A DNA stretch of 64,000 bases from Agarophyton chilense (lineage: Eukaryota; Rhodophyta; Florideophyceae; Gracilariales; Gracilariaceae), in assembly GCA_030374765.1 (NCBI GenBank), contig JARGXX010000022.1, positions 930,001-994,000 on the forward strand, written 5' to 3'. How positions within the stretch are numbered: position 1 is the first letter of the stretch; each line of letters opens with the position of its first letter. The translations under genes were made by a program, and so were the position numbers. This document shows positions 8,261 to 59,430 of this stretch, one piece after another. A model generated the notes under the pieces. That model did no database searches. It worked only from the letters and a program-made list of their open reading frames with translations, and was not told the DNA's origin.

Positions 8261-11200
8261 TTTCCACATGATAATCCAAACCCCCAGCCCAATCTGGCGG
8301 CGACACGTTGAAAGATGTGTATGCCCTGGTGTAAACCGCCTCTAATGACTGACGTTGGGCCGGGGATAGTTCGTTGAGCGCGTGGTATAATTTGTGTGGT
8401 TGAATATATCCCTTAAAATTCTTATCGCTTTGCCAACGTTTTCGGCATTTTATATCCTGGTCGACGAGACGAGCATAAAGCTTGTCGGTGGTCGCCCCGC
8501 CTTACCTAAGCATGTGTGGAGTGATCGCGAACGGAATCCCTAGACGTTCGACGGCTCTTCGGAGACCGGCCCGAAATCGGGCTGGTTGATACGGGAAAAG
8601 AACTTCTGCTTCTGCCAGCTTTCTTCTTCTAACTAATTTGTTTAACAAAACCGCCAAAAAATACGGCCTTATCGTGACGGATTCATTACGGCCACGTTTT
8701 CCTATCGCAATGTTGAGCATCCCATAGTGCGGCCGCTTTTCGGTTAGTGGCAGCATGGCGACGTCCAATACTTTTAGCTGCAATAAATCCCCTAGCCTGA
8801 GATACCCATCAAACAGCAGCAGTAATCCCACCCCCAGATCCAGATCCCCGTGTTTGAAGAGATCCAATGCCAATCCGTATACAACGATTTCCGGACACAC
8901 GCCAAAGTGAAGGTTAGGGCGCGACGCTGTCCAGCCTTGTATACTTTGTTTTCACGTTTTGGCATCAATACGCCATTTTTCCCGACTTCAATTCCCAAGA
9001 CTTCTGTACTTTCTCCTTCTGCCTGCCATGATGCTTTTGTCGCCTGTGAAGGCAAAGAGCTACGCTCAGACTCCTTTATCACGGCCCGCAGATTTCTTTC
9101 CGACATCTCTTTGCTTGTTCCAAACGAAAAATAATCGTCCACGTAGGCTCCAAATTAATATTCGCCAACGGAAATTGAATCCGCTACCCAGTCGTCCATG
9201 CAGAGCTTAGAGCGAGCTAAGATTTCTAGATGGATTTTCTAAGCCACAAAGACAGAGTGTGACCACCCCATGGGCATTGAGAGCATGACGGGGAATAATT
9301 TTTTCGCTCCAACTTCGATTGGTGGCAAACCAAAATACGTATTCATCCATCCTGGTAATTTCATTCGGTGGTATTGATTGTCCATGTCTGACTTTCCAAC
9401 ATAAAGCGTTCGTCCTTCCGGGATGTGTAATCTCGCCAGATGCCCTGGGTTAGGAAGATCGATTTTTGGTGGATCGGTAAACTGAAGGTTAGCGTTCCGA
9501 GCGTCGATTATGAGCCTTTGTTTTCCCTCTTTTTTAGGAACCGCAAAAACACCATTTACAACTTTCGGTTTTCTTTCCCTCAAATCTACTAACCCCTCTT
9601 CCACCAATTTTCTAATCAGGGCATTGTAATCTTTCGCCTTCACTCCACAAAACGGCTTCTTAGCTCCTTTCAACTCTTCATCTTCTCGGATATTTTTCTA
9701 GTCATATATAGTAGCTGTATATCCCCTGGTAGTAATGAGATAATATCAGCCAAGGCTGCCAGACTTTTTCTGGCAATGATATTCGGTCCGGATTCAGCCA
9801 GACCCATTCGTGTGGGTCACAGTATTCGAACGTAGAATCAACCTCTCCTACGGACTCCTCCGCAACGAAATAATTTCGGCGGTATGAGTCCTCCCCGATG
9901 CCTTGCAATATATTGCTCGCCAGGCTTTGGACAGCGTTCTTCTCTTGTACCGGTAGAAAGGGGTAGACATGCCCGGCATACAAGCAATTAAGCCCACTTC
10001 GAAGTCCCTCAAGTATACTTTGGATTTTCTTCTTGCGTCTCCACTTTTATCGTTGTCGTGCGCTTGCTTTCTTTGTATCCCCGTCCTGTATATCAGACGC
10101 CCCTGACATAGGAAGCACGTCCCGCCTGTCCGTCGAATTAAAATTTGTTGGTGTTGTTGTTGCTGTCGTTGTTTTTATATTAATTATCGTTCCCCTCTCT
10201 TTGCTTTCGCAAGGCAGACTTATCCTTCTTAAACTCCTTACGAAGTTTGGCCGACTTGTGAAGCATTCGCTTCATTGACTCGCTTATCAAATCGTCGTGC
10301 TCCTCTTCGAGTTCTCTGGCCGCTTCCCAGTTGCCAGTCTTATCAACCATTGTCACTGCAGCCAACCTGCGAATTGCCAACTCCAGCGCCAACTCATTTT
10401 TGGCTCTTATTATGCCTAGCGAGCTGATGAGGAAGTCAATAACCCGAGCTAGCGTTGCAGCTTCCCGGCGGTTCCGAATGCCCGTCAAATGACGAGCTTC
10501 AACCCACGCAGAGACCGTCGGATAATTCGTCAGGGCTTTGCGGAGCTTATCTTTCCCTTCAAGACTGTCAACCGAAACATATTGTTCAGGAAACGGTTTG
10601 CTAGCGAAAGCAACCCAGAACTTTTTGTTCGCCTTCTGCCGTTTCGAACTCAAAGCCTTCTTCGCAAGGCTCGAAATCCTCTCGTCTCCATCGTCAGACT
10701 CTGAACCGGAGTCATTGCCAGAATCGACAAACAACTCCTTCCATCGCCTGTCTGATGTCGCCAAGAAAATCGTCCCCCTTTCGCTTATTCTTTGAGTTTT
10801 TTCGCGACTCCTTCAATTCCTTAATGACTTTAGTCATGCGTTTCTGCGCCTTCTCCAACCCCTCCATGAAAGAAAGAATTTTCTGCTTTTCACTGGGGCG
10901 CGTAGTAGCCTCTTCCTCAGAGTCAGAATCCGGAGCGGACTCGGACTCGTATTCACTCGAGGATTCACCCTCTTTGCCCCCCGTCACGCGTTTAGAACGC
11001 CCTCGAGGGTTTTGATCCGAGACGGTTACAACTCGAGTACTCGCTACTCCCTTAGAAGATCCCGCTTCCGACGCACTCCCTCCGACACTTAGTGGGTATG
11101 TTTTATCTTCAATGCAATGAAACAAGACGTCCGTCTCTCCCTCTTTAGGGATTCCCGGAATCTCATTCCTGATTACACGAAGGAGAGCATTTTTGCTCTG

Positions 11201-11330
11201 TGACTTTTCTCCAAGGTAAACTGAAAGCCTACCCCGAAAAGCTTCTCTTACGACGCCCAAGGCCTCTTCCCCCATGCCCTCGATTTTCTGCCCGAGAGCC
11301 CTGTAGCAGGTCAATCACCTTTAAGGACGG
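8260..11330 (-). mobile_element. Tyrosine-recombinase retroelement fossil (DIRS group, PAT/Ngaro-like gene order)
   Basis: Read on the minus strand the visible parts are: two gag-like frames (about 11,314-10,712 and 10,764-10,180) with acidic, serine-rich low complexity and Arg/Lys-rich helices; a reverse transcriptase (about 9,673-9,060) with VPKKEGKQRLIIDARNAN, a KSDMDNQYHRMKLP block and a YVDDY catalytic box; and a tyrosine recombinase (about 8,900-8,330) with the box-I arginine in DGYLRLGDLLQLK and a TPHMLR segment like the HxxR box. RT upstream of the recombinase is the order of PAT/Ngaro-type elements rather than DIRS1. No LTR pair is seen; a GC-rich stretch at ~11,340-11,560 may be part of the element's terminal region. 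It is a broken fossil with several breaks, of moderate to old age. Whether the ORF at 12,160-13,014 belongs to it is undecided. Confidence 0.75.
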
Positions 11331-14927: not shown

Positions 14928-16100
14928 TGTATGACGGACCGGTCGTGCACGCGAGGCGTACAGGTGTGCGACCAGCACTGCTGGTCAATTATAAATTTTA
15001 TTATCTGAATTATTGAAGGAGGAACTTTACTGTACTATTCCACACTATATGTGGTATAAACCAAAACGGTAGCAAGCGGTGTAAAACCTGACGCTTCCAG
15101 GGAGCAAGGGATGTGCTCGACCTAGAAGGAGAGGATTGAGGATACCTGTAAGGTGTGGCAGCACCAGCCACTGAAGGGTGCAACAGGAACCGCTGGCTCA
15201 ATGGGACCACGTTGATAGACGATGATGCACAGCGCTCGCAGGTCCGAAAAACCGTGAGGACACTATGCTTACCTTTATGGTCGACTGTAGAGACCAAAAG
15301 GGGTAAAAGTAGTCTAGTAGGTGCTTGTCTTTACAATCGTGACGGAAGTGGCCATGCTTGGTGGAGATATATCTCACCAGCCATCCGACCTTCGGTGGTG
15401 CTCTTCGCCACGTGGCCACAAGGAGGTGCCCTTGAGGTGCGCCTCCCTATTCACCTACTCTTATCTGAATAATTCTAAATTAGCGAAAACTGAGCTAATT
15501 GCTAAATAAACTACTGTCGTACACGGCGCATGCAGGCAACGAGCCAGGTTCACCACGTGGCATAATTTCCTTATCGGTTTAGCTCACTTCACTACACTTT
15601 ACAGTGGCTCGGCGATCTTGCCTTGCCGATCAGTATATATTCCCCAACCGAGTTTCTGTAGCTCTAAGTCTTTTTCGCTGGCATATGCTACGATTCTTTT
15701 CGGAGGTTGTGTCTTGTTATTAATTGTCGATTCACGCACACCGCGTCTTTCAGAGAACTGTCACCGCCATTGACGTGTGTGTTTACTATTTACATCTTCT
15801 GGCCCCTGTATAGAAATGCTCTATTTTGTTTACTTTGGCCCACGTCCGGTGCACCCCGCTCTCCCTACTGCGTGACCTTTTTTCCTCTTTATCCCACTCT
15901 CTTGGCTGAAAACCCCCGTTGCACCAATACTTTTGGACCTACTTCTCCCACTCAACTCTTCCCGCTTGTCGCGCAGCTCCTCATCGGGCTTAAATCCCGA
16001 CTTCGTCCTTCATTCCCGGAGAAGCCCCGTTGCTGTGATACCCTCCAGATGGAAAGATACTGAACATCTCATTTTTGTTTGCTCTCCAAACCTTGAAACC
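14928..16100 (+). repeat. 5' LTR of Gypsy A (interrupted by an insert)
   Basis: Begins near TGTATGACGGACC. Segments 14,930-15,050 and 15,595-16,100 align with 26,025-26,650. Shared words include TCAGGGTT-like promoter-proximal sequence, GTGGCTCGGCGATC and CTTTTCGGAGGTTGTG. The middle, ~15,050-15,595, has no counterpart in the other LTR. Confidence 0.7.
15050..15597. mobile_element. ~550 bp insert inside the Gypsy A 5' LTR, unclassified
   Basis: This segment is missing from the 3' LTR copy, whose sequence runs directly across the site (around 26,145). The flanks on both sides resemble the CTACACT(A/T)TA word that occurs once in the 3' LTR, which suggests a target-site duplication of roughly 10 bp. 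The insert has no coding capacity beyond ~100 codons and ends in an A/T-rich stretch. It could be a non-autonomous element (SINE, MITE or small retroposon). Confidence 0.5.
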
Positions 16101-19100: not shown

Positions 19101-22100
19101 ATCCCACCTGATTCCCAGGTCTGGGTACGTGTCAACTCCCTTCAACAAAAATTCCGGATTATCCAACCGCTTCCATCGTTCTATGATAAATATCAACTCG
19201 TTGTGGCAAGTGGATTTGCGGAGATTTAGCCTTACTAGTCTTTCACGATTTCGGTTGCCAGTCTGGGCGCCTCACCGAAACTTCTACTGAAAACCCAAGT
19301 TATTGGGTCGGTCATTTTTCACCCCACCGCCATGATCCCTACTCAGTTAGCAGCCACTGAAGTTCTCAACCTTGTTCAATCTGAGAAGGGTCAGGACAAA
19401 GTCACTCAATCACCCGGTAATTTAAACCGAAAACCTGCCTTAACAGAGAAAGACCCCTTTCCAGCAAGCTATAACCAGATACACCCCTAGAAGAAATCGA
19501 GGAACTTCACATCGGCTTTGTACCCGAATCTCGTTGTGAACGTCTCCGGGATATGTTACGAGAGTTTACAAGAATTTGGAATGGATCTTTAGAAGAGATG
19601 ATTACAACAGAACACCGAATAGACTTGCTTCCGAACGCTAGCCTTGTTACTCAACACCCTTACAGGGCCGGCACCAGAAGTAGTGAAGACTAACAGTTGC
19701 AAGTGGACGAAATGCTCCGAGCTGGAGCAATTCAACCGGCTCAATCGTCATGGGCATCCCCCGATGTATTGGTTTCGAAAACCGATGGGGTTTGGCGTTT
19801 CTTTATCGACTTCCGTCGCATGAACAATGTAACCGTTCACGAAGTGTATCCGATTCCACGTAGTGATGACCATATCGATTTACTCGGCAGTGCTACCTTT
19901 TTTTCCATTTTGGTCGCCAAACGAGCGTATTGGGAAGTTCCTGTTAGAAAAGAGTTGCAGAATAACACTGCTTTCGTCTTTTATTCAGAAATCTACCGCT
20001 TCAAACGTATGCCTTCTGGTTGGAAAAATGCACATTCAACCTTTTCAGCGTGCTCTGGATGTTTTACTAGTCCTTTTTAAGTCGCGTACATGGCTTGTCT
20101 ATCTGGATGATGTCATCGTTTTCCCAGGCCAGGGAAATTAATATCACGTCATGGGCAGCTGGAATATCCCTCAAGTTGGGAAAATGCAACTTCTTCACAG
20201 ATATTTTCAAATATCTGTTTCACATTATCCCTTCGAGACAAGTGATGACAGGTTAAGCTCGAGTGAAATAGCTTCCCCTAGTGGTAGAACCTGAGAATCA
20301 GAAGGAACTCCGCTTCTTTTCAGGATTTATCAACGTCTACCGACGATTTACATCGAACTGTTCGGAAATTATAGATCCCTGACGCGCGCTTTTGCCGAAA
20401 AATTGACCACAAAAGTTGGAACCCTTTTCGTGGACCCAGCCGGATTATTTAAATTCCCTTATTGAGGCCGTCATATCACCACTGATCTTATCGTTGTCGA
20501 GACTCGGACTACCGGCTGCAGTCGAAACAGACGCCAGTGAATACCAAGTAGGATGTGCTCTCTTTCAAAAACTTCAGAAGGAAAACGGAAACCCATTGGG
20601 TATGAGTAACGGTGGCTGAATACCCACGAACATAACTACTGCATGTCAATTAAAGAGTACCTCGCCGTTGTGTTGGCTCTCTATACTCTGCGCCACTATC
20701 TTATGGGTGTAAACTTTACTGTTTTTACAGATCGCTCATCTCTAAGATGGATTCTAACCGTGTCAAAACCGTCCAGTTGCCTAATGTTTTGGAGACACCG
20801 CCTAGCGGAATAAGACTTCAAAGCGATCTACAAGAAAGGCACGCACAACGTGGAAGCCGACGCGCTACCACGTTTACCCACGAACAAAGAAGCCCTAAAC
20901 ACCGATGAAGAGGATATACCTTGCTTCACCGTTAGTGATCGAGCACCGGACGACCCAGATTGGATACACGATACGTGGCCTAAAGACCCCGAGTTGGATG
21001 CTGTATGGCATACACATCTCGTCACTGACAAAAATGAGAAGCCCCCATCGAGAAATTTCGTACCGATACACCCAGAGGAGATAGTTAGAGAACAGCAGGG
21101 TGACCCTTTCTGTACGAAAATACGCATTCTCCTTAACGTTGGCGCACAACTCCCATGAGAGATAAATCACATTGGATACCTCGTCGAAACGGTACAGTCA
21201 TCCCTATAAGTAGTCGTGCTGCATACTTTAATATCTATAGAATTGCATATATCTCACTTTTCGAAAAGTTTTGGACACACTGGTGTACGAAAGCCCTATC
21301 TCTCTTTGCGAAGGAACTTTTAATGGCCAGCCATGGCTGTGGATTGCTACGCAACAGTGTGATCTTGAGCCCATTGCGCTGGGAATCTCGTGAAACTACG
21401 CAAACACTCGACGAAGTTGACGCTCTCCTTGCGCGGGCTACACTAGAGTTTTTTCAGTCGACATTCTCGGCCCCGCTACTCATCACCCAACACGGAAACA
21501 AAATTGTACTCGTTTTTACTGATAGTTTCTCAAAATTTGTTCGGAGGGTCCCTTTAAGCAAGATATCTGCTTTGACGGTTGCAAAAGCTTTTGCAACCCT
21601 CGGAATACTTGTCTACAGCCCGTCGGTTCTTTTTCTGTCTGATAACGGAAAGCAATTTGCATCGCACTTCTTTGAGAACGTGTGTTGCACTCTCGATATC
21701 AAGAATCTATTCATCACTACCTACCACCCCCAGTGTAATAGACAAGCCGAAACGTTTAGCCGAACGCTATTGGTCTCTCTCCATTCTTACGTGACTGATC
21801 ATTCCAAACCTTGGGATTTGTGGCCTGACACTTAAGCGTTCGCATACACTAGGCAGGTACTCAATAAAATAATGTGGACTTCATTTGAATTGGTTTTGTT
21901 CCACCTGCCGCCCAGTATCACGTTTGAACCCCAGCCTACGCTGGAAGACTTTCCTTCCGTGAAGGATTACAGCCACAATTGGAAAGAGTACCTGTCAAAT
22001 TTGATTCCAGCTGCTTGCAGTTGAACAGTCGATGCCGAAGCCGCCTCCAAAAGAGATTTTGACTCCCTCCTACGCACAACGGAGCCAACGATAGAGTCAG

Positions 22101-22469
22101 GTGACTAAATTTCATCCGTAAAGAGTACCAGAACCTCGACAAGGAGAAGCGTTGCAAACATTTTCCAATCGCAGCCGAGCCCTACAATGTAATATCTGTT
22201 AAACACGAGGCCATCGTTGAGGAAACAGACGATGCTCAAGAGCGCATCTCCCGGGACTGCGTTGTTATCGCCACACCACCTCCCTCACATAGACTTTCTG
22301 CTGGTGCACAGCCGACTACGGTGGAAATTGATCCGCGTCACACCTCAATGATTCAGCTCACTTCAGTGATTACCAGACTCTCTTTTCTACACTCTACTCT
22401 GGGACTCTTATATTTGCCGCTCTTGTCGGAAACTACTGTAACGCAATGACTGTTGGGTCAGCGTACGGG

Positions 22470-22790: not shown

Positions 22791-25700
22791 CCACATGAGG
22801 TCGACCTGTACACGTGTCGCCTGTAAAATACCTCAGGGCCCGGCGGCGTACAGGGCTCAACCGTTATCATCGATTGTTCACAACTTCCCAGAAAATCCTT
22901 GCTCTCCCGCCGCCGCGTAGTATTTATCGTTTCTGGTTGGGAGGCTCTACCGCCCCCGCCCTCCCGCCGCTTCATCTGAGGACGAGGACGGGGATGTTAA
23001 CGTACACCACAAGAAAGTCGTTAAGGGCAAGTCTGCCACGAACAACTCATACGCCGAAAGCGAAATTAACTCGCTACCAAGTGAAGAGGAAACCTCCACA
23101 AGAATATGCCGCAGCGCCAGTGCACCCTATTGAGATACGTTCCACCCACATTTCCGACACTTGGACGAAAGAAATACCGAGACTTCGGAATAAATCGTTG
23201 GAAGCGGTACTGAAACTGCGGAGCCTTCGAATTCACTGACAACGCTGCTGTGCGAGCCCTCACGTGAGAAGGCGGGACACACCACTGCGCGAGGCACTCT
23301 CAGCAATCAATAAAAACTCGCAAGTGAAGAACCGCCCCCATTTCGTGATACAGACCAATCAGCGCCCAAGGCCGTCAATCTTCTGTTGCACGCCGCAAAG
23401 AGGCACAACCGCCTCCTTCGTGACCTTCTCCACCGTGAGGATGGAGATTATCACGGAATTCCGTGGAGCGCGACCCAAAACTCTATCTTGAAAATGAGTG
23501 TGCGGCACAAACAAAGCCTTGTCGGAATGTCTACTAGCAGGAAGTCGTTATCAACCACTTTGCGGAACACTCATACTATTCCTATGGTGAACGACAGTAC
23601 CTTTTCCGTCGGTACGGCTATGGTTCCGAGGCTGACTGGGATAAACCGATTGAGCATGTTCCACGTTCAAAAGTTGTTTTATATCACCACTGAGCGCGGA
23701 CAGGGATTCTTGCGACGATCTTCAACGCCCAGGTCGGATATGGGAACCACCGTTGGGGAAGAGTACGAAGAACAGAAGAACAGAATACAAAAGAAAGAAA
23801 AATGTTTTAATAATTGAACTAAGAAGTAAGAAGAATGCACGATCAACTTGGTATTTATTCGATTATATCAGTATCAGACCGAGAAATAAGAAACTATCCT
23901 ACATTGAGAAACAGCAATTCTCGTTCGGGATCATCAACACCTTACGGATTAAGATGGTTACCACCTGAGTGGCTGCCTTGAAGGAGGGAATGCAAAGCCA
24001 CTCGCATCTCGAAAACGTCACCGCTGGCAGTGCTATTCCTCAGCCCCACCTCGCGTAAGAACTGAGAGATGAAAATCGCTTGACTCGCCGGGCCGGAACT
24101 TGCCCCGTTTGAAACGGTTTTACCTCAAACCAGGACGCCTACTGGCGAAGCCGGAGGTTTGCAACCCCCTCTTACGGCAGGAGCAGCTTTCGCAATACTA
24201 TCAGCATCCCTTTATGGCATGATAGTGCTTCCTGTATTAGGTTTCTCATCCATAAATTGGGATTCAACAACCTCAGTTGACTCCATACCCTGGTTGGGTT
24301 GATTGTCGCATATCGGCTCCTCACGATGGCAGACGTTATTTACTCGTCCACATCCACCAGTCCGACTGGATGCCTCTAAGATATATCGCTCAGCGATACG
24401 AAGCTCATTAGCTTTCTTCAAAGAGATCTAGTGTCCCTCCCAATGGTTTAAGTATATGAAGTCACCCGCGCGCGGAGCTGAACGCCCTGCTAACAGGTTC
24501 TGCGCCCGGCCACAGGTTGCATGTTCGCTCTTTGAAAGAGGGGCTCACGTCGAATCAACCTGTTCGATGAAATCGAAATGGTTCGGTACCTCTCGGGCGT
24601 TGGTTTCACCATGCAGTGTGATGCGCAAGTCTAAAGCACGAATGCTGACGCAAACCCTCAATGAGATAAAGCACAGTCAGTAAAAGTCGTAAACCTCCCG
24701 GAGAGTGAAGACTGCCCTGCCGATAATTCACTCGGTGACGATGACCGGGCAATTTCCGGACAGGGGATTCTTGAGGAGGTAAGACCTGTAATACTTGATG
24801 ACTGGAGGTACCTCAACGTAGCAACTTTGAAAAGCTTCGATATGAGATCACTGAGATGGTATGGGAACATAATTACTGCGTTGGTCAACCGCGCGAAGGC
24901 CTTCACACTTTTTCATACGGAACCATACACCTGAGCCGGGATCGCGCTCACCGCTCTAAATGGATCATTGCCAAGAAGTTCACACACCCCCACCGTTACA
25001 TGAAGCCGAATTAAGCCCGAATGATCTGCCGGAACAAGCACACGGCGTCGTGGCGCACAAGGGCAAGGCCCCCCCTCTACAAAAAAGTTTGAAACCCCGC
25101 TAGGTGGCCGAGATAGCCAATTGAACCTAAAATGCAGTACAGCATGATGTTAGAGCCCTGTCCATCGGGGATGAGGAATTCAAATAGAGCCCGCCAAGAG
25201 CGTTGATTCCCCGAAAGCACATTAGCGGCATGTGCCGAAGCTACCGATTTGGTCAAGCCGCGACTTAATGTAAAAACCGGAAAAGCTACACGTTTCCTCC
25301 AATCCTTCTAAGTGGTTACATGGACTGGCATATATCTCGGAAGTATTCCATTTTCATAGGTGTACATCGTCAAAAGGGGGTTATTGAACTCCGAAGTCTA
25401 GTGGAACCACGGTCCCAGCCAAAGTATAGAAGCTCCCAAAGTAGGTTGAAGACCGACGAGCCAGGTATATGATGGACGCATCAGAGGTGATTAATGTCCC
25501 ACATGAGAGACTCCTGCGTTCGTGACTGGTGCAATCGGCGATGCCGATGTCGTATCGTTCTGCAGTAAGAGCACTGAATGAAACCCCGAAGAATAGAATC
25601 CGGAGAAATACTCCTGCTGGGTGGTGTTGGTGTGATCGGGGTTTTTGTTGCTGTATTTCTTTGGTTGGAATATAGACCGAAGTTTTGGAGGAGAAAAACG

Positions 25701-26024
25701 GGGGACCGCTAGTGGATAGAGAAGAATCGGAAAAGGTGATCGTAGAATAGCGTACTTCGTGCACCCCAAAATTTGGGATTGTTCGCTGTCATAGGATTCG
25801 AGTTTCGCTGTCATTTGATTGTTACTTCGACTGGAAGAAATAACTGGTGACCCGGATTTTCTTAGATACACGATCTTCGCTGCTTTATCGTCCACCGCCG
25901 ATGTCGTACTCCCAGTTGAGGATGCGAATATGTAGTGCAACCGTCGTAAATGTGGTTTTCTACAACTTAGGATTTGTTTACCGCTCGCGAGTGTTATAGG
26001 TCATGCACCTATCAGGTTGCGTCA

Positions 26025-26650
26025 TTTATCGACGGACTGGTATGGGAATAAAGGTGTACGAGTGTGTGCCCAGCACTGCCGGCTAGTTCTATATTTTATT
26101 GTCTGCAATATTTTAAGGTGGAAAGTTTAATGTAGTTGTCTACACTATAAAGTGGCTCGGCGATCCTGAGTGACCACTTAGTAAATCCTCCCCACAGGGT
26201 TTTTGTGGCTCTTGGTGTTTTCCGTCTGCGCGTGCTACGACTCTTTTCGGAGGTTGTGCCGTGTTATCCACGGTAGACTTATCCTCTTCGTGTATTCGAG
26301 AGAAGTACCACCGTTGCTAGCGTCTGCTTATTACGACTCACGTATTCTCACCCCTGTCTATGGTTTCTCTATTTTGTTTACTTTGGCCTCCGTGCCCTAG
26401 GCCCCGCTCGCTCTATTGCCTGACCCCTTTTCACATTATTCCCACTCTCGTGGTTGAGTACCTTTTTACACCATTAACTTTAGCCTGACTCATTTCAATC
26501 CACTCTCCCCGCTTTTCGCACAGGTTTTCCTCGACCTTTCACCACTACTTCGTCGTACATTCTTGGAGAGGTTCCGTGTCTGTGCTACCCTCCAAAGGGG
26601 AAGATACAGAACGTCTTCGTTTTAATTGGTCTCTGGACCTTGCACCACAA
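26025..26650 (+). repeat. 3' LTR of Gypsy A
   Basis: Colinear with the two outer parts of the left LTR, including AGTGGCTCGGCGATC, CTCTTTTCGGAGGTTGTG and the terminal GGAAGATACAGAACGTC. Its right end abuts the integrase end of Gypsy B1, showing that Gypsy A inserted at or beside that older copy. Confidence 0.75.
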
Positions 26651-29501
26651 TATTTTCATAGTTTTTATGAGCCTTGAACGTCTTGGATGAATCATGAAGG
26701 CGCACTGTTACGCCAAAATCTTGCAAATACATACAGGTTTTCACTCCTTGTGATAACCCAAAGAGGAAGATATCACATGAAAGGTGTCAAAGTCGGGAAC
26801 CATAAAAAAACCTAAGGTATCTCACCATCGAAAGTCGAACCATTAAACAAAACCATCTTTCCAAGAGCTCTTTTAATTGAAGCCTACCCACCATTCTTTC
26901 TGACCTACCATTGGACATCGGTGCGTAAGCTAGAACAGTTCTTCACTTGATTCCTTTCTATTTCATGAGCGATGTGAGTGACCGATATGTGAAAGAAGTT
27001 GCATTGTCGGACACTAGGATATGAGGAATGTCAAACGGAGAGATGATTCCTTTCTTCACGAAATCTAAAACAGATTCCGACGTTGAGTTCTTTCTGGACA
27101 CAGAAATTGGCTAACCAGTGAGATTCTCAACCCAGATCACGAGGAGCTGATTCTCAGCCTTACTCTTTTGGAATGGTACTGAAAAGTATAATCAAAATAT
27201 ACCAAACAAAGAAGTAACCGTTGTACGAAGATTGCTGTAGTACCGTGGAAGTTGGAACATTTATTGACAAGCATCACACGTTTTCCTGTACTCATCGAAC
27301 TGTTGATACGTATTTTGCCACAAAATTGTTTTGGTGATGAATTTTCTTGCTGCTTTCCCATTCCCGAGTCCAATTTTATCATGAGAAAAACTCAGAGTAT
27401 CCATTCTCTGAAAAAGATCTTGCAGGACTCGTAGTTTTTTCGCAGTTATCCGAAACATTTTTGCATCCCCCACCAGGAACTGTTTATCTTAGCGTTTTAC
27501 TGTTAGAAGAACTGGGAAGTCATGTTCATTCATTGTCAACAAACAAAGGCAACGAGAAAAGTTCGCATAAAACGCTTCAAGTCTAGAAAACAGGTCAGTT
27601 TCTGCATTGAAACACACGGGATCTCTATCGTCTTCATTTAACTAGACTTGTGCACTAGTTTCAATTCTTAAAAAATAGTTTGTTGTACCATTGTCTTTTC
27701 CATCGCGATGGACTATCTTAAAGACATACTCGGCCAGAAAGTCAAGCAGTCGAGCTAGACGCACACGTTTGTCTCGTTTCTGGAAATCATACCAAAAGGT
27801 CATATGATTAGTAACATCTTTAAAAGGAATAGATCACAGCAAATTCGCCCTTACCTTGTTCTGTTGAAAAATGACTATTAGAGCTTCTCGTTCAGAGAAA
27901 GAATAATTCTTTTCCGGCGCAGTCACCGTACGACTAGCAAACTGCAATGAGAGGATCTTACCATCTTCTTTCCTCTGCGACAATACGGCTCCCAGCGAGA
28001 AATTTCAAGCGTTTGTGTCCACAACGAAAGTTTTCTCGAACTCGGAAAATAATAAAACTGGTGGTCCAATTAGCTTCTTTTTACAATTCATGGAATTCTT
28101 TCAGCATATCTTTTGTCTTCGTCAGCTTTCCATTTCCGGATGTAACACTGTGAAGCACAGCTGAAGTCTCAGTGAACTTTTTGATGAAACGAAGATAGTA
28201 GCCAGCCGGGCCAAGAAATGACCCGAGTTCAGTGGTTTTTGGGGGGTCAGTGCTTCTTGAATTCTATTAATCTTCTTCTGATCCAAGATAACCACGCTAG
28301 CGTCAAAAAAATTACTGTATAGCGACACTTTCGAAAGAGCAAAGATCATGCTCTTTTATGTTTTTCAAAATGAATTTGATGTGCCTCACATGCTCTCCAA
28401 GAGTTTTCGAGAAAATAATAGCGTAGTTAATATAGACCCGCTGGAAGGGGAGAACGTGGAGGACGAAATCCATCATAAGCAGAAAAGTGAAAGCGTCATT
28501 TATGAGGCAAAATGTCTCAATTTCAACCATGAAAGCTCCACACCTGCCTACAAATGTAGTCATCTCTTTGAATTCTTCTGACATTTTCACTTGCCACTTC
28601 CCAGAGAAAAGATCTTGCGCAGTGAAGAAATAGCATCCTCTTACGTCATAAATGATCTCCTGCATACGAGAAAGTGGCCAACGATCTGCTTTCATAACCC
28701 TCTAGAGTTCGTGGTATTCTACGCGGGATCTGGGACCCCCATTGTTCTTGGTTGCAATAACAACTGGATAGGACTATATTGATGCAGAATGGATAATGAT
28801 ACCAGCATCAAGCAGTAGGTTCATTTAAATCCGTATATTCTTGTTAAGCTTCGGGGACATTCTGCTAGCCCGGGAATGTATAGGCTTGTTGGTCGTGAGC
28901 TCAAAGAAATGTGATACTGGGACTTCAGCAGAAGTAAAATACGTCAGCTTCCAAGCAATTCCGTTAGCATCCATTCAATACAAAATAATTTCTTCCTTTT
29001 GTTCCGTAGGTAAAAGAAACAGTTTGGAAAACAACATTGTCTCCCGAGGATCAGACTCAGTTTTCTTCAATGCAGATTTCATTCCGAATTTTTCACTACC
29101 TGTGAAAGCCACAACCAGTCCTTTGTATTCAGAATCAGACTCTTCGACTACAGCATCAGGATCAGACGTAAATCATCGGTATGTGTTTCAGAGTCTTCTT
29201 CTTCTAAATCCTAAAGACGGTCATAACCAAGTATAACCCTTTATCCGGAAATTTTCATCTTTTCTTGCTCATTCACGAGATCACGGCAGACTTACAACCC
29301 CTACAAATGTGGACACTTAGTTTTGACATCAAACTGTGGTCTTTCAATGACAAGGAAAGGTAGTGGAACTGCTACAACGCCAAATGAAACCGGTATATCA
29401 TGGAGGGCATCCATCCAAAGAGTGCTACCTCCGTTGCATGCAGTGATTTGTTTTGAGCTTTTCAAAGGATACAAGGATAGTGTGCCGCAAAGAATGGTTG
29501 G
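26651..29501 (-). mobile_element. Gypsy B1: degraded Ty3/Gypsy copy (protease to integrase)
   Basis: Minus-strand parts colinear with Gypsy B2: protease region (~29,500-29,300), RT (~28,700-28,300, KADRWPLSRMQEII as in B2's KADRWPLPRMEEIF), RNase H (~28,000-27,700), the integrase zinc-binding part (~27,470-27,260) and the integrase core (~27,150-26,700). It is heavily broken, with many breaks, and looks clearly older than B2. Its 5' side meets the ~260 bp repeat at 29,502-29,765; its other end is cut by the Gypsy A LTR. Confidence 0.8.
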
Positions 29502-29765
29502 TATTTGTGGGCGCCATCATTGGTGTGACGCTGTGGGCTTGACGTTACAGTAAACTTCGGCGTAATAAAGCCTTTTCCTTTACTGAACTGCCCAGATAGA
29601 TGAAATGTGATATAAATATTTTGAAATAGTCTTCTTAAACTTCTTAAACAAACGCAACCGAAGACTTATGTCAATAGTCATTAGGGGTCAGACACCCTGG
29701 CTTCCGGTCAGACACTCCGGATGTGTAACGATTTCTTCAGCCTTCTCACTTCTGCTTTATCCAGA
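29502..29765 (-). repeat. Copy 1 of a ~260 bp LTR/leader repeat
   Basis: Nearly identical to 35,018-35,275 (about 15 mismatches by eye). It sits between the 3' side of Gypsy B2 and the 5' side of B1. Similarity stops sharply at TATCCAGA in both copies. It is best read as the LTR plus leader of this family, shared by two tandem copies. Confidence 0.7.
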
Positions 29766-32700
29766 AGCAGGCGTGTACAATCCCTACAAGGCTTCCCGAG
29801 GAGAGGTAATAACGAAAGGATAAGTTTTCACTCTATACCCGAACCAAGTCTTTACGACCGTCACAGGCTTTTCACCATGGGGGGCTCTCTAGACAGACCC
29901 AGTACCGTTGGTACACACAGACCGTCTCCCGTCCACGACCCCTGTACTGCGGCAAACGCCTCACAGATTTTTTATAATTTATGGGGTTGCTCTTCCAGGG
30001 GCAGTCGCCTCACTGGACCGCAGGCGGCAAACAACTCACCTTTTGATAAAGTTGAAGGGCTTGAAGCCAAAGGAAAATATATTGTTGTTGGGTGTTAATC
30101 GTTTTTTTTTAAGTCGTCCGAGGAAGAACTCGGAGACATCAGAGCCCTTTTTATAGAGATCTAGAACCTCGAAAAAGGAGCTAAAACGCATTAATACTCG
30201 ATAGTTACAACTATGTGCTTCTAGGTTACTCTAATTGCTGCTAGCAGCGATTAAAGCAGCACACTAACCAATAAAATTATAACAACTATATATTTTTCCT
30301 AATGCGCCATTATGGCTTTCGACGCCAGCGTTGAAATACAGAGTGAAGATCCTGCTGGCACTCCATAAACGTGTGTTCCAGCCATTCTGGAACACTTTAC
30401 GCATTACGAGACCCACATTGCCGCATACCTAACGGTTGCTACGCCGTGGCAACCTTAAGTCCTTAGCTTCCAGTAGTTGCGGGATATAGCGCTTTAAACG
30501 ACTTGCATGTATCCCTTGACGAGTGTATCGGTTGTGATGCGAGACCAGAATGTACCTGGGGTGATCTGCTCGAACAACACGGCAAGGTCCATAGAATTTT
30601 GAGGATAAGGCTGGCCATTAGACTGTCGCATTCAGTGATTTCCCCTTTGCTACGAGAACTTGGTGTCCAATATGAAATCTCCTTATCTTCTCCGAGCTCT
30701 CTTTGGTGATTCGTAAATCTGTGCGTCCTGCCCGAGGGTTACATACCGCCAAATTTTCTATAGTCCTGAACGTCTCGGATGAGCTATCAAGGCAGGCTGA
30801 TATGCCAGAGTCTTGTGATGACATACGGGGTTTCACTCCGTAAAGTAACTCAAAGGGCGAGATGCCACATTCAAGGTATCGACGTCGGTAACAATAGAGA
30901 ACTGATGACAATTCGTCATCCCAAGCCGAACCATTGGCCAAAACCTTCTTTCCAAGTGCCCTTTTAAGTGTACCAACCATTCTTTCTGCCCTACCATTCG
31001 ACATTGGTGCTTAAGCTAGAACCGTTCTCCATATGATTCCTTTCTGTTCCATGAATGATGTGAGTGACCGTGATGTGAAGCAGGTTACATTGTCCGACAC
31101 TATGATCCGAGGAAGGCCAAAGGGAAAGATAATTTCCTTCTTCACAAAATCCAAAACAGATTTCGACGTTGAATCCTTTGTTGGTGCAGCAATCGGCCAA
31201 CCAGTGAGATGCTCAACACAGACCAAGAGGAATCGATTCCCAGCCTTACTCTTCTGAAATGGTCCTGCAAAAGTTAATTGAAAATATTTCAAAGAGAGAG
31301 GAGACCGGTTTGCGAAGATTGCTGTAGTACCCGGGGAGTGGAGCCATTCTCTGACAAGCGTCACAACTTTTCACGTATTCACCTACCTCCCGATACATAT
31401 TACACAACCAAAACCTTTCGCTTATGAACTTTCTTGTAGCTTTCACATCCCAGTGCCCAATGTCATCGTGAAAAGATCGCCGAATGTCCTTTCTCTGAAT
31501 AAGATCAGGTACGACTCGTAGGCCATTCGCCGTTCTCCGAAACAGTTTTCCTTCCCAGACCAGGAACTGTTTTGCATTCCGTTTCACAGCTTGAGTAACA
31601 GAGGCGTCGAGTTCATTCAACGGCAACATACAAAGGTAGCGAGAAATGTTCGCATACAATGGTTCAAGTCCAGAAAGCTGGTCGGCGTCTGCAGTGAGAC
31701 AAACGAGGTCTCCTTCGTCTTCGTGTGACCTGATCTGTTCTCCATGTTCAATTCTCGAGAGATAGTCTGCTTCACCATTGTCTTTTCCAGCCCGATGAAC
31801 TATTTCGAAGTCATACTCTGCGAGAAAGTCAAGCCATCGATCCAGACGCCCATGTATGTCACGTTTCTGGAAAGTATATCGAAGGGCCATATGATCGGTA
31901 ACAACTTTGAAATGGATAGATGACAGCAGGTACACCCTAAACTTCTTCAGCGCAAATATGACTGCTAAAGCTTCTCGTTCAGAGACTGAATAGTTCCTTT
32001 CGGCTGCGGTCATCGTACGACAAGCATATTGCAATGGATGGATCTTACCATTCACCTTTTTATGCGACAATACAGCTCCCAATGAAACACTTGAAGCATC
32101 TATTTTCACAACGAAAGGCTTCTCAAACTCAGGAAATGATAAGACCGGTGGTTTGGTTAGCTTCTCTTTCAACTCACGGAAGGCTTCCAGCATATCATTT
32201 GTCCTTGTCAGCTTCTTTTTTCCGGATGTAGCACTGTGAAGCACAGCTGAAGTCTCGGCGAAATTCTTGATAAAACGACGATAGTACCCAGCCAGACCAA
32301 GAAATGACCTCAGTTCAGTGGTCGTTGAAGGTGTCGGTGCTTCTTGGATTCTGTCGATCTTCGATTGATCCACGAATACAACGTTCTTTTCAATGACGTG
32401 ACCGAGTAGCGATACTTTCGAAAGAGCGAAGAAACACTTTGATAAGTTCAGCTTAAGATCATGCTTCCTAATCCTTTTTAATGTGAGTTTGATGTGCTTC
32501 ACATGTTCTTCAAGACTTTTCGAGAAATTTACAACGTCGTCAATATATACCCGGACAAGGGAAAGACCGCGGAGGACAAAATCCATCATACGCTGAAAAG
32601 TGGAAGGGGCATTCATAAGGCCAAACGGCATAACTTCAAACATGAAAGTTCCATATTTACATACGAATGTAGTCATCTCTTTGCTTTCTTCTGAAAATTT

Positions 32701-35275
32701 CACTTGCCAGTACCCAGAGAAAAGATTTAGCGTTGTGAAGAGACAGCATCCTCCTAAGTCATCAAAGATCTCTTCCATACGAGGAAGTGGCCAACGGTCA
32801 GCTTTTATATCCCTCTTGAGTTCCCGGTAGTCCACACAGAATCGGGGACTCCCACCTTTCTTGGTTGCAATTACGACGGGAAAGGACCATGCCGATGCCG
32901 AAGGTGTAATGATACCAGCATCAAGTTGTAGGTCGATCTACTTCCGTATGAAGTCGTTATGCTTCGGAGACATCCTTCTAGCCCTAGATTATATAGTTTA
33001 GCTGGTCGTGAGCTCGAAAGAATGTGATACTGAAACCTCAGCAGAACGTAGATCTGTCAACTTCCAAACGATTACGTTGGCCTCCGTCAGATACGAAACA
33101 ATTTCTTCCTTTCGTTCCGTACGTAAATGAGACAGTTTGGAAAGCAGAAGATTATCCTGAAGATCAGATCCGGGGGCGCCCAGATCTGATTTTATTCTGG
33201 CTTTTGCATTCACTGTAAGAGCTACAACTAGTTCTTCATCCTCAGAATCAGATTCATCAACAGCAACATCAGAATCAGATGTAAATTCATTGCTCTCTGT
33301 TTCAGGGTCTTCTTCCTCTAAAACCTTAACACGGGCATAGTCGTAACCAAGTATAACTCTTTGTTCGGCGATCTTCATCTTCACTTGCTGGTTACCGAGT
33401 TCAAGGCAGGCCTGCAACATTTCCAAAGTTGGACCCCAATTATGACATCGAAAGGTGGTCCTTCTATGACAAGGAAGTCTAGTGGAACTGTCATAGTTCC
33501 AAATGAAACCGGCACATCGTGGAGAGCTCCCATGCAAAGTGCGCTATCCCCATTGGCTACGGTGATTCTTTTTGAAGTTTCGGTTGGATCCAAGGATAGT
33601 TTGTCACATAAGTTTGTTGATATTAAGTTAGTAACAGCGCCGGAATCCAGTAACGCCTCAGTTTCAGTCCCAAAGATTCCAACAGGGACGACTCTAAGAC
33701 GTCTCGGATACTTGCCTACAGGGCCAAGAAAAGGTCGACGAACAGCTTTCTGGAGGCTGATGAGCTTCCTGATTTGTTTCTTAGCATCATCGGCATCTCC
33801 ACGAATCAACTGACCAAACGTGATCTCCGAAGAGGCATTTGCCCATTCCGTTATCACATTATACTTGATTGCATGGTCGGGTATATTTTCTTTCTTCGAC
33901 TTTCTTGGTTTCGGCTTTCTCAGCTTCTTTTCGTCACTCTTCTGATGATGAAGTCTTTCGTGACGAAGCTGGTCCAACAAGAATGTAATGGGAGCTCTGC
34001 CATCCGAGCGGGGTTGCTTTGGGAAGGCTTGTCCGTCCATAGTTCGTTTTGTGGTAGCCACAACATCTGCCGTCTTCAGATTCTCCGTTACAATTGAAAC
34101 AGGCTCGGTCCCGCTTTTTTACTGGTTAGAATGCCCTCTCTTTTTTTCTGAGTCATTGGGTAATCTCCGAGCTTCTTCGGGCCCGATCTTACGCCTACAA
34201 GTCATCTCAGTGTGTCCCATCTTACCAAATCCGTTGCATCTTTTATCACGATGGGGGTTTGAATCACATTGGGAGGAAAAATGTCCAGGCTTTCTGCAGT
34301 ATGAACAGGACTTATCTAGATCCCGGCGGTCCGTTTGGGACTTCTTAACCATAAGAGACAACTATGCCAACTGATCTGCTAACTTGTCGACCTTTGACTC
34401 CAAGCCTTGAGAGGAAGGACTTCCGTTTGGCCTAGGATTGTGGATAATATGCTTGGGCGGTGTCACAAATGAGACATGGTGTCTCATGGTTTTTTTGGCA
34501 GAGTCGAATGCTTTTACTTGAATTATCAACTCATCATAATCCTCTGCACCTCGAAAAACGATGAACTGGGCAAGATCTGCGTATTCCACAACGGCCTTTT
34601 TCAATAAGCCGAACTTTTCTTTGGAATTGAATCCAGCTTTTTCGAAAAGGTTATCCATGAAATTCATAGAACGAACTAGGTCACCGTAATCCAACTTTGC
34701 CGAGATTGCTAATCGGATGTCTTCTTCCGGCTCTTCGACGTCACCAAAACCGTTGATAAAAGTCTTTTTAACAGAATCATAGTCCTTTGCTTCTTCGGAA
34801 AGAGACCCATTGATGGCATTTGTATCATAATAGAACTCGAACGCTTTATTTTCTAAGAAACCGAGTAACTCTAAGGCCATATCTTCTTTGGGTTTTCCTC
34901 TCATGGCGACATTTTCGAAGTAAAAGAAAAACTTAACGACATCAATCGAAGAACCATCATAAGTTGTGTTGGCAGAACCGGGTTCGGAGGAACTCTCTCC
35001 TCGAGAGTACCATGTGGGTGCCATCATTGGTGTGACGCTGTGGGCTTGACGTTACAGTAAACCTCGGCGTAATAAAGCCTTTTCCGTTACTGAACTGCCC
35101 AGATAGATGAAATGAGATATAAGTATTTTGAAATAATCTTCTTAAACTTCTTAAACCAACGCAACCAAAGACTTATGTCAATAGTCACTAGGAGTCAGAC
35201 ACCCTGGCTTCGGGTCAGACACTCCGGAAGTGTAATGATTCCTTCAGCCTTCCCACTTCTGCGTTATCCAGATGC
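29766..35275 (-). mobile_element. Gypsy B2: well-preserved Ty3/Gypsy element
   Basis: Read on the minus strand: gag (35,027-34,362), two CCHC knuckles (34,361-34,119, CSYCRKPGHFSSQC and a second related copy), aspartic protease (34,061-33,381, with the ALLDSGAVTNLIS active-site motif), a linker (33,537-32,998), RT-RNase H and the start of integrase as one long frame (32,835-31,246). That frame contains VYIDDVVNFSKS, VVKIDASSVSLGAVLS, and the HHCC segment FHDDIGHW...CDACQ. The integrase core and C-terminal part follow to ~30,430. It looks nearly whole with only a few breaks, so it is younger than B1 and Gypsy A. 29,766-30,430 holds no recognisable domain and is presumably the 3' untranslated part. 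Confidence 0.88.
35018..35275 (-). repeat. Copy 2 of the ~260 bp LTR/leader repeat
   Basis: The 5' end of Gypsy B2, directly before its gag start. See 29,502-29,765 for the partner. The word GTCAGACACYCYGG occurs twice inside each copy. Confidence 0.7.
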
Positions 35276-36268
35276 GACAGTGGAAAACATTGATACATTG
35301 TTAACGATCTTTCCGTGCAAGTTGGTGCTGCCTTTCTCTTTACGTCTGCTCTACAGTTCCTGCGAGAAACTCATGGCTGGAATATGCTTATTGAATCCAA
35401 ACAGAAATCGAAAAGTGCTCTGCAGAATAATGGGCTTGGAAATGCATCTACCAGTCAGGAGACGTTTGTCGTACAAAGTGACACCAAAAACAGTCCGAAA
35501 AACTGTCAGTTTGCGTTGCAATCAGGTATTTAACAAAATACCTAATTCGGTTTGACGCGAAAAAGCACCCTTTTTGTAAGAAAAGATCACCAGAGCTTTC
35601 CAAGCAGGTTTCAGCATTACATCGAGAAGCAGAAGGTATATGGGTGCTAGCAGAGGCATCCAACAAACGCAAAAAACTGTTTGAAATTATCTTCAAGTTG
35701 AGCAAAAGCAATTTATGGTAAACTTGTTTTCTATGCCTGGTACAGAACCTGGCCTGCGCATAAGGTTTTCAAAAATCACACTGCAGCAAGCCCTTAAGAA
35801 GCTTGAAGTGAACTATATCAATGGCATCTCAATCCACCACGCTTTTTCTTTCGCGGTCTTATACTCCTCTGCAAATATACAACTCACTGTCACACTGAAA
35901 ACCGCTCAAATTAAGAAGGGGAGCGGCGATGTTGATGTTTCTGCTGCTTCAGAAAACCAGGGAGTGATGACTGTCGAGAATGGTAGATAATTTGTCTCTT
36001 TGGACACTGAAAAGGAGGCTGGAAATGCTCTGTTGTCGTTATGTTTCGACGAAGTGAACTTCTCTATATCATTGTTGTGAAATTAGCATGTGGTCCGTTC
36101 AGGAAAACTGGGGTTGGGAAAAAGCCTAGCTCGCTTCGCTATGCAATTTCCATATGTTTCCCAGTAGAGCCTCTTCAAGATTTCTCTGTTGTTCCTTGAC
36201 CTTCACGTCATCTGATATTGTAGCATGAGACTCGAGGTGCTGCGCGACAAAACCATTTCTAATCCGCT
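35276..36268. other. No recognised gene
   Basis: Short frames on both strands (up to ~147 codons, partly overlapping the B2 repeat). No motif is recognised. A 91-codon plus-strand ORF at 35,715-35,990 has no similarity I can name. Confidence 0.35.
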
Positions 36269-43206: not shown

Positions 43207-43723
43207 AATTGAGCTAATGATTGTATAAAGGATATACCTTGTTTTTGACTTCGTGGTTTTTATTTGCTGTGAAATATGCTCTACAGTACGTGAAATGCCT
43301 TTTTGGCGCAGTTTTTGTCAAGGGATATGTTTTTGAAACGCACTGTAACTGTCGCGGTAATCGCGACTTTACCGTTTTGAGATCAACGCGCGCTTTGGTT
43401 GAGAACAGTGCTTGTAAACAAGAGGTACGGGTCGCATCTTTTCGGATATGAACAGATTTTCATATTTATCTGCTGCTTGTCGTTTTGTAGCAAAACCTGA
43501 CCATTGGGTCATGCACAACAGTCCGGGTATCGTCGCGAAACCTTTCTCGAGGAAAAGCGTGCTTCATTTTTGTTGCCAACGCAGGTAAGGAGTTCTTGCA
43601 AGGATTCCGGTAGAGATATATAATCTTCAAAGCGAAGTTTTCAGTTTTCAAAGAACGTGGCTTCGGCGACACCTGCAGATATATATATATATGTACCAGG
43701 AATAAGGCACAGAAAAGCGCACA

Positions 43724-44787
43724 ATGCACTGGAAACAAATGGACTTCAAGACAGGAGCTTTCTGTGAGCCGCCCTTGTCCTGGGCGAAATGTAATGTTCT
43801 TCGTAGCAGAACAAGTACGCATCTTCGACGACGGAGATTCTCATGTCAACAGAACCCCACTTTACCAGACTCGACACGGAAGTCCATGACAAAGCTTGAC
43901 CCTAGAAGTCGAACACGGGAAGAAAACGAAATCAAAGCCCCCAGCGTGAAAGACGTCGTCAGCGAACCTGTTCCGGATCGAATCGATTGGAGATTTGCAG
44001 GACCACCATTACAAAACGGATCGCTGCCAGCTATTTTGTACTTGTCCTTGACCGCTGAGCAGTCTCTGGAACTGGATCCGTTCAACCAATTTGTTAAGTT
44101 TCTCAGTCCTTCCACGCAGTCAAGTTTTCGGGTGTTTTCAGTTACTCTACCGTTCCATACATCAGACATGACAGAAAACGAGGCTGCATTCGAAAAGTGG
44201 GCGGACACGTATAAGGCTGGTGGCGATTTAGTATCCGGATTTGTGCGAAAAGTCAATTCAACTCTTGATACGTTCATCGAGTCGGGGTTCGTTAGCGAGG
44301 GGCGTATCTATGTTGCCGGCCTCAGCCGGGGGGGTCTTCTGGCTGCTCATATTGCCACAGCTAACCGCAACGTTCAAGTGTGTCTCGGATTCGCACCTGT
44401 AACGGTTCTTCACTACCTGGAAGAATTTGCCGATCTGGATCTATTCCCAGAACGGGCCCAACAAAAGATTCATCGTGCATCACTGCTTCATGACCGCGTT
44501 GTGAGAGGATTAGTATCTATTCCATTACGGTTCTATATGGGAAACTCCGATACTCGAGTTGGCACGAAGAATGCGTTCGAATTAGTTCATCTGTTGGCGG
44601 AACGTTCTGTCGAAAAGGGGGTGCGATCACCGCCCCATGAGTTCATTATGTATTGCAGGTACGTTCAAAACGGTAAGAGATGCAAGTTGCGAGATTTGTT
44701 TTTTGTCTAACGGGCTCGTGTGTTTATCTCTTCTTTTTGTTTTATTTAATCAGTGTGGGGAAGCAGGGACATGGTACTCCACCGTAA
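43724..44787 (+). CDS. Alpha/beta hydrolase, two exons (43,724-44,658 and 44,754-44,787)
   Basis: Exon 1 encodes a hydrolase-fold protein with the nucleophile elbow GLSRGG (Ser nucleophile, ~residue 202) preceded by a beta-strand RIYVAG. FAPVT and FYMGNSDTRVG segments follow; the latter normally holds the acid residue (Asp). The catalytic His is absent from the continuous frame, but a 95-nt intron (44,659-44,753; donor GTACGTTC, acceptor TTTAATCAG) joins it to VGKQGHGTPP, which supplies the GHGTPP end typical of the family. This gives ~322 residues. The substrate is unknown; bacterial and algal relatives are annotated only as hydrolases or peptidases. The N-terminus (HLRRRRFSCQQN) is Arg-rich and could be an organelle-targeting sequence. 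A TA repeat at ~43,680-43,692 lies just upstream and could serve as a TATA element. Confidence 0.82.
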
Positions 44788-45139
44788 GTCAACGACGCCA
44801 TTGTGTTGGGTTGCTAGTCGAGGTGTTTTGTGTATTAGTGGAGGAGCTTAGATTGCTGACTGACGTTGTGTGTTTTTCGCGATGCGTGTGTTGGCAGGGA
44901 TGTTTTTCGAGCCGGGGCAGAATACATGCTTTCACAGTTGGGGCAATCTCAACAAAGATAGACATGAACTTTGCAACGAGAGAAGCGGCGTTAGTGTTTT
45001 ACGGTAACAGAATGAGGGGGGGGAGGCTATAAAGCGCCAGCATGGTCAAGTGCAGATAGTAAAAAACAATTGGTGCTCTAAGGCAACATTAAACAGGCGT
45101 TGATGTGGAATGATGCACGAGCAGTAAATATTATAAGGT

Positions 45140-45811
45140 TTAGACATACATGACATTGTTGACGTTACCCTCCGAATCAGTCTCGATAGGTTTAGTAACA
45201 TCGTAAAACCATTTTCCATCCACAATGAACTTGTACAAATGCTTTCCAGGGGGCAAGGGTAAAGCAAGCGCGTAAGACCCATCTGTGGTGCAGAGGGGAT
45301 GGTGTTGCTTCCAATCACAGAAGGAACCGGTGACGAGAACGTTTGTTCCCATGCGAGGAGTCCACTGCAGTGTGACATTTGGGCTTGTATCCGTTTCGAC
45401 AGCCTGTTCCGGGCGGGTAGGGGGTATGTCAGGTTGAGGTGCAGCGTTCTCTTTGGAAATGCGCTCGTCAATTTCCCTGACCTTGTCCTTGACAGAGTTG
45501 GAGGGTTTGATATTGGTGTTGAAAGTAGGGGTGGATTCGGGAGAGATCGGTCGAAGAACTTGATAGGGTTCGTAGGGTGTGTGAGAGACTAGCCGCTGGA
45601 CACCATTAGAGTGTTCTGAGAAGGCTTTGGGGGATTTAAATGTAGGGGTTGTCTTTTTGGGGGTTTTGGATGAAGGCGCTGTGCTGTTGGGGGCTGTAGT
45701 GAGTGAGGGGGGGGCTGCAGTAGCTGCTAGATCGGTAGTGGCGTCGGCAGTGGGTTTGGTAGCGGGTTTGGCATTAGGCTTGGAAGTGGTTTTGGGAGTA
45801 AATCTGGGCAT
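45140..45811 (-). CDS. Glycogen/starch-binding-domain (AMPK-beta type CBM) protein
   Basis: I place the start at the ATG at 45,811 (MPRFTPKTTSKP), giving 223 residues; the frame stays open upstream but would run into the next gene. Residues 1-~145 are low-complexity, rich in Thr, Pro, Lys and Ala. The C-terminal ~78 residues are a carbohydrate-binding module of the AMPK-beta/CBM48 kind: LQWTPRMG, VTGSFCDWK (conserved Trp), LPPGKHLYKFIVDGKW (second conserved Trp) and the ending NVNNVMYV. It has no AMPK-beta C-terminal (ASC) domain, so it is not a conventional kinase beta-subunit. A role in binding cytosolic storage glucan is an inference from the domain. Same strand as the DUF2237 gene ~230 bp upstream. 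Confidence 0.8.
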   Translation of the reverse strand: MPRFTPKTTSKPNAKPATKPTADATTDLAATAAPPSLTTAPNSTAPSSKTPKKTTPTFKSPKAFSEHSNGVQRLVSHTPYEPYQVLRPISPESTPTFNTNIKPSNSVKDKVREIDERISKENAAPQPDIPPTRPEQAVETDTSPNVTLQWTPRMGTNVLVTGSFCDWKQHHPLCTTDGSYALALPLPPGKHLYKFIVDGKWFYDVTKPIETDSEGNVNNVMYV

Positions 45812-46041
45812 GGTTGAAAGGGATGGGCGGAGAACAACGAGGGGGGGAAGAAGGAAGAAAGAAGAAGGCGTTGGGCGGGGGGGGGTGAGGGGCGGGAAGA
45901 AGATGAAAGAATTGAAGGGTGGGTGGTGCGGGGAGCAAGTGCAACAGTTGCAACAGCACGCACAGCACAGTGCGGGGCGTAGCGCGCGCTGTGATTGGCG
46001 CAAAAGGACGCGCAAATGGAGCTTTACGCAGTAAACTAACG

Positions 46042-46671: not shown

Positions 46672-46820
46672 GGCGCATCTTTCTTTTGCGCTTGCAATTT
46701 GCCGCGCTTAAATTCGGCGGCCCCTTCGCTGCCTTTCACCCTCGCTCTGCAAACGCACCGCACACACCGCACCGCACCGCGCCGCAACCTCCATCGTGCT
46801 CACGCCCACCTGCTCTCGCC

Positions 46821-46926: not shown

Positions 46927-46938
46927 TCCGGTCAACGC

Positions 46939-59418: not shown

Positions 59419-59430
59419 CCTTAAGACGAG
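59418..59430 (-). promoter_or_regulatory. Polypurine tract of Gypsy D
   Basis: On the minus strand AAGGAGGGGGAGA directly precedes TGTAGAGC, the expected position of the primer for plus-strand DNA synthesis at the internal edge of a 3' LTR. The antisense ORF start lies only ~20-60 bp away on the other strand. Confidence 0.65.

Follow-up and report, generated by a model that had tools for sequence, protein, structure and literature searches.

Gypsy retrotransposons of the red alga Agarophyton chilense carry a gene that runs against gag-pol and lies between pol/chromodomain and the 3' LTR. Two such elements, Gypsy A and Gypsy D, occur in the window, by which we mean the whole 64,000-nucleotide stretch analysed here (contig JARGXX010000022.1, positions 930,001 to 994,000), and the genome holds at least four element families with the antisense gene (A, D, E and F). 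The gene, its address, its ancestry and the selection on it are nearly certain. A regulatory or anti-silencing role, suggested by analogy with antisense genes elsewhere, is quite possible if not quite probable. Taken jointly, we consider it fairly probable that this is an accessory gene of a chromodomain-bearing Gypsy lineage in Gracilariaceae, ancestral to A, D, E and F, maintained by purifying selection and acting through a regulatory mechanism.

An intact and a decayed antisense gene in one window

Gypsy D lies on the minus strand, and its parts follow one another in the order gag-like ORF (by position) and pol frame (L064 and 64000-62540), chromodomain, antisense gene and 3' LTR; from the integrase onward this is the order found in Gypsy A on the opposite strand.

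58494-59409, minus strand: 3' LTR of Gypsy D (partner LTR at C22:999328-1000244, outside the window)
59410-59430, minus strand: purine-rich (polypurine-tract-like) stretch at the inner LTR edge; family E has one too
59623-61347, plus strand: antisense gene of Gypsy D, 574 codons from a Met common to family E and the homologue P0002; the open frame itself starts at 59425
61747-62109, minus strand: chromodomain ORF of Gypsy D (Pfam PF00385, E 2.3e-08)
62540-64000, minus strand: integrase part of the Gypsy D pol frame, which extends beyond the window

The two LTRs of Gypsy D are 98.69% identical over 917 bp, and the element, flanked by the 5-bp target duplication GCTTT, is a nested insertion. It lies about 250 bp past the plus-strand gag ORF of another element (Retrotrans_gag, E 2.4e-10; both within the stretch that runs from 57717 to the D LTR edge at 58494). 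Its chromodomain stands in a separate ORF, in a different frame and about 430 nt past the end of the pol frame (61747-62540); the two may be joined by splicing or by a frame shift.

Gypsy A lies on the plus strand, in the order integrase, chromodomain, antisense remnant and 3' LTR.

15577-16095 (ends approximate), plus strand: 5' LTR of Gypsy A (blastn, 69.4% to the 3' LTR)
19484-20077, plus strand: reverse transcriptase part, 53% identity to D
21479-22335, plus strand: integrase part, 48% identity to D (first piece)
23472-23738, plus strand: chromodomain remnant (tblastn with the D chromodomain, E 1.8e-12, 38.7%)
25652-24906, minus strand: antisense remnant, piece 1, matching D residues 78-331 (tblastn); holds all four anchor motifs; 7 in-frame stops
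24910-23957, minus strand: antisense remnant, piece 2, matching D residues 332-632 (tblastn); after a frame shift; 7 in-frame stops
26125-26642 (ends approximate), plus strand: 3' LTR of Gypsy A (blastn to the 5' LTR)

An earlier note on this DNA had described the two elements as very different in age, which the LTR pairs bear out (69.4% identical in A versus 98.7% in D), and had proposed that the minus strand of Gypsy A holds a decayed homologue of the Gypsy D antisense ORF. Such a homologue is indeed there. Compared with the window, the D antisense protein aligns along most of its length to the reverse strand of Gypsy A, the alignment passing from one frame to a second, with a joint E of 9.3e-36 (tblastn); against the reverse strand of 24400-26189 the joint E is 7.6e-35. 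As a control, the A region was shuffled 1,000 times with its dinucleotides preserved. The best HSP on the real reverse strand scores 88.6 bits, far above every one of the shuffles (maximum 27.7, median 18.5). The four short anchors on which the homology had been proposed exist, within about 20 nt of the positions given for them, and share a single reverse-strand frame (QQEYFSG starting at 25619, GPWFH at 25415, ENGILP at 25355 and KDWRKRV at 25307). Given this score and the shared frame, neither of the two outcomes that the earlier note had named as speaking against homology, a score no better than that of shuffled sequence or anchors in unrelated frames, was thus found. Some of its figures need adjusting. 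The agreement of anchor spacings between A and D holds, at 204, 60 and 48 nt in A and 219, 57 and 48 nt in D, in place of the slightly different 197, 58 and 51 (A) and 207, 57 and 51 (D) given before; and the remnant, placed at 24430-25940, covers 23957-25652 when delimited by homology.

With 14 in-frame stops over both pieces plus a frame shift, the A remnant is a pseudogene. It is additionally matched by three protein homologues (P0002, P0003 and P0004), and the same antisense remnant is present in all three further A copies that were read (L061-L063), broken at places other than those in the window copy. At the DNA level, the A region has at least 45 matches, and those listed, apart from the region itself, are 64-84% identical to it. 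A chance resemblance of two unrelated open frames is a negligible prospect, ruled out by the shuffles, by the matches to the three homologues and by the other A copies.

Copies, address and descent

Searches of the 79.8-Mb assembly show that the antisense gene is present in many copies, as opposed to being a one-off transduction. Searching with 36 bases of the D gene's 3' end as a tag finds 299 sites with at most 3 mismatches (control: 0). In the D search, 34 of the 69 best places, out of 1,843 candidates, have no internal stop by hand count, a share that is biased upward because only the best-scoring places are included. Family E occupies at least 75 scored places, typically with 611 open codons; a hand count gives 21 that lack a stop. 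Searching with the Agarophyton chilense protein P0011 revealed family F, which is about 57-58% identical to E and has 33 places among those listed at 67% or more (hand count). P0011 maps to a family F locus with 100% identity over residues 1-363; in its public annotation the antisense gene of a family F copy is spread over two frames in an intron-like manner, and residues 1-363 and 360-519 form separate matching pieces in many F and E copies. Identical scores at four E-family places, on C34, C114 and C115, suggest a recent segmental duplication or a duplication in the assembly.

The address is as stable as the gene. In the window, both D and A have the antisense gene between pol/chromodomain and the 3' LTR. 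Among D and E loci chosen by their antisense gene (30 of each), a chromodomain on the opposite strand lies past the gene's end in 30/30 D and 28/30 E loci, the orientation being opposite in all 58 that have one; of two F loci, one has the chromodomain opposite the antisense gene. The association also holds when approached from the integrase. There are 88 D integrase places, 46 of them within range of the tag listing, and in 40 of these 46 the gene runs on the other strand, 1.1-1.4 kb away (3 of the 40 rest on scored places of the D search), while the remaining 6 have none among the exact matches listed. The gene is not shared by every Gypsy element: at 26000-36000 the window holds two mutually related minus-strand Gypsy elements (repeat families D1-D4) without it, no match to the antisense gene being found there at E up to 1.

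The identical order of parts in A and D supports the proposal that the shared address goes back to a common ancestor. Further support comes from comparing the antisense gene with the integrase of the same elements: integrase identity is 57-66% for D-E, 48-54% for A-E and 48% for D-A, where the comparison with E, by tblastn, draws on the only 2 partial E loci usable against D and A (the integrase frame breaks in the L039 copy). For the antisense gene the corresponding values are 35-42% (D-E), 25-30% (E-A) and 26-33% (D-A), and the order of similarity agrees between the two genes.

The D protein finds 3 homologues and the E protein 9 more; a 6-row profile search retrieved none beyond the 3 found with D. 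Where a source is named, it is Gracilariopsis chorda or Agarophyton chilense, both Gracilariaceae, and the homologues include Gracilariopsis chorda BWQ96_10156 and hypothetical or unnamed Agarophyton chilense proteins, which by sequence belong to the same protein family and whose records bear no functional name. In a 16-row tree, in which 6 of 13 inner branches are without resolution and the A row is long and of unsure position, D groups with P0002 (support 100/99), and E, F, Agarophyton proteins and P0009 form another group (100/99). P0003, from Gracilariopsis chorda, falls outside a 12-row group that includes E, F, P0004, P0009, P0012 and P0013, with a support of 86/82 that is below the strict mark. 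Judging from these sequences, the split between D and E may predate that between Gracilariopsis and Agarophyton; horizontal transfer may be the alternative to a D-E split older than the two genera.

Where did the gene come from? An ancestral Gypsy might have captured it once, from the host or from another mobile element, and the gene might have played a role of its own ever since. Capture must have occurred at some time. However, none of the 3 + 9 homologues has a name that hints at a host function, Pfam provides no match, and a chromodomain accompanies the gene in all D and nearly all E loci read, so we regard this account as unlikely; it is, moreover, compatible with the accessory-gene reading, which is about present use.

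Selection on the antisense frame

The earlier note had argued that the gene was kept under selection. This holds in comparisons between families, although the argument on which it rested, that two elements share the gene, is no proof by itself. E and F differ by a dN of 0.29-0.31 and a dS of 1.74-1.99; the resulting dN/dS, 0.15-0.18, lies well below 1 but is rough, synonymous sites being near saturation (pS 0.68-0.70). Identity at codon positions 1, 2 and 3 is 0.72-0.73, 0.75-0.77 and 0.46, respectively. The low ratio and the fast third positions together indicate that the protein was under purifying selection. For D versus E, where synonymous sites are saturated, the three positions are 0.56, 0.60 and 0.30 identical. 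Even D and A retain 0.46, 0.54-0.57 and 0.31-0.33, against 0.20-0.29 under random pairing. Because the first two positions have held up better than the third, the frame was under constraint before A decayed.

One might imagine instead that only the antisense transcript matters, as double-stranded RNA or in antisense regulation of gag-pol, and that the open frame is incidental. Non-coding antisense transcripts are known in other elements, as described in the available text of PMC7264820, and the protein is known here from its sequence alone. If the frame were incidental, neither the dN/dS nor the codon-position patterns just given for E-F and D-A would be expected, and the 574 open codons of D stand against 9-19 stops in each of the other five frames over the gene. 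We therefore think a role of the RNA alone very unlikely.

Within families, dN/dS is nearer to neutral (0.88 in one E pair, 0.56 in one F pair) and by itself shows no selection; we rejected it as proof. Across 29 D copies, N/S is 0.83 for singletons (with 12 stops), 0.41 for doubletons (1 stop) and 0.69 for variants present in at least 3 copies (no stops). We read near-neutral change within families, combined with constraint between them, as selection acting on active source lineages while resident, dead copies drift; the contrast among D copies, taken alone, is weak. Since a single 80-Mb genome contains families of very different age, with both open and decayed copies, selection on the protein can be measured.

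The protein, its possible role and known antisense genes

No Pfam family was matched at E up to 10 by any of the 6 members scanned, nor was there a match by sequence in the PDB. The best two matches in PHROGs, each to a single member, have E 0.14 and 0.26, and 3 pattern matches in viral contigs yielded 0 confirmed. Structure prediction from 4 sequences gave a poor model (pLDDT 41), which was left out of the fold searches. An AlphaFold model from 13 sequences, covering residues 132-640, is mostly helical (pLDDT 66, pTM 0.61; 293 of 509 residues at pLDDT 70 or above) and has no match with E < 0.001 in the PDB or BFVD; a second look with VIA-align, comparing one chain, gave no match either. On the strength of this model, a new fold is possible. 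Invariant residues of the D protein (P0001) include E315, R316, R319, G323, P327 and E332.

Might the product be a structural protein, envelope-like or involved in movement or particle formation, expressed from the antisense strand? The gene sits where retroviruses have env, and Pfam shows no nuclear domain. There is also a hydrophobic helix conserved in the protein family, and over 19 residues, where the hydropathy threshold is 1.6, P0004 (2.15, at the N-terminus) and P0012 (1.86) exceed it. However, the D protein reaches a maximum of 1.19 and has no strongly hydrophobic segment, most other rows lie at 1.1-1.5, and the model has no viral fold match. In addition, the env-like genes of plant elements are sense-oriented, at least in the available text of PMC7264820. 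On balance we consider a structural protein unlikely.

We favour an accessory gene with a regulatory function, along the following lines. The ancestor shared by A, D, E and F already had the gene, and purifying selection kept the protein while the lineages were active, resident copies decaying thereafter. Transcription would proceed against gag-pol from a putative promoter in or beside the 3' LTR, and the product would be a soluble, mostly helical protein that may regulate the element's own expression or replication, or blunt host silencing, as proposed for the antisense genes of plant elements and HTLV. We lean towards regulation because a gene conserved for so long, in this orientation and immediately inside the 3' LTR, suits an accessory regulator expressed from an antisense promoter. 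Transcription, promoter and function are all presumed, and the short distance from the LTR edge to the shared start codon (213 nt in D, about 170 nt in E) fits them; across the LTR edge itself, D and E are alike at 18 of 21 bases.

The layout has precedents. In the available portions of PMC7264820 and PMC11963269, the angiosperm Gypsy elements Grande, RIRE2 and Retand are described as having antisense ORFs (aORF-3R) between pol and the 3' LTR, and gene23 of Grande and HBZ of HTLV are discussed as antisense-promoter accessory genes, the antisense promoter of HTLV lying inside the 3' LTR (PMC7264820). As far as these accounts go, the red algal gene resembles the aORF-3R in its position between pol and the 3' LTR, its antisense orientation and its many copies. 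It differs in its red algal hosts and in the chromodomain of its elements, Retand being described as a non-chromovirus lineage. It differs from Retand, too, in that the TRP28 domain (PF04195) is absent from all 6 red algal members scanned with Pfam (0/6). The likeness to HBZ of HTLV-1, as portrayed in the same available text (PMC11963269, PMC7264820), is that of an antisense gene near the 3' LTR, the red algal side being read from DNA. Unlike HBZ, the 6 red algal members have no Pfam domain and hence no bZIP. HBZ of HTLV-1 is a bZIP protein.

By titles and the beginnings of abstracts, the open literature, a scope that leaves most subscription papers aside, holds no red algal report, and the words 'antisense' and 'LTR' are absent from the main text of a paper on Gracilaria sex chromosomes (PMC12502185). 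We accordingly judge the aORF layout in flowering plants and HTLV as known, and as new what appears from sequence comparison to be an unrelated protein in chromodomain-bearing red algal elements. That a red algal antisense regulatory gene evolved independently of angiosperm elements and HTLV, with a fold not seen before, is conceivable, and we would sooner bet against it. If true, LTR elements would have arrived repeatedly at antisense control genes at the 3' end, and the red algal gene would be among the most abundant cases, with copies in the hundreds, four families within a single genome and at least two algal genera. With the present results, antisense accessory genes are known from LTR retrotransposons of red algae as well as from those of flowering plants and from HTLV. 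Some of the orphan proteins annotated in red algae are explained as encoded by retrotransposons, and what antisense extra ORFs do becomes a question that can be tested in red algae.

The window has further features. Minus-strand ORFs at 8502-11314 resemble a DIRS/tyrosine-recombinase retroelement; a match to Phage_integrase at 8502-8951 (E 7.5e-05) is below the curated cut-off, and the neighbouring ORFs are without a Pfam match. At 43706-50795, intronless-looking host genes lie amid the transposons: a Peptidase_S9-like ORF, an AMPK glycogen-binding protein, a PPIP5K-type kinase and a TH1 protein.
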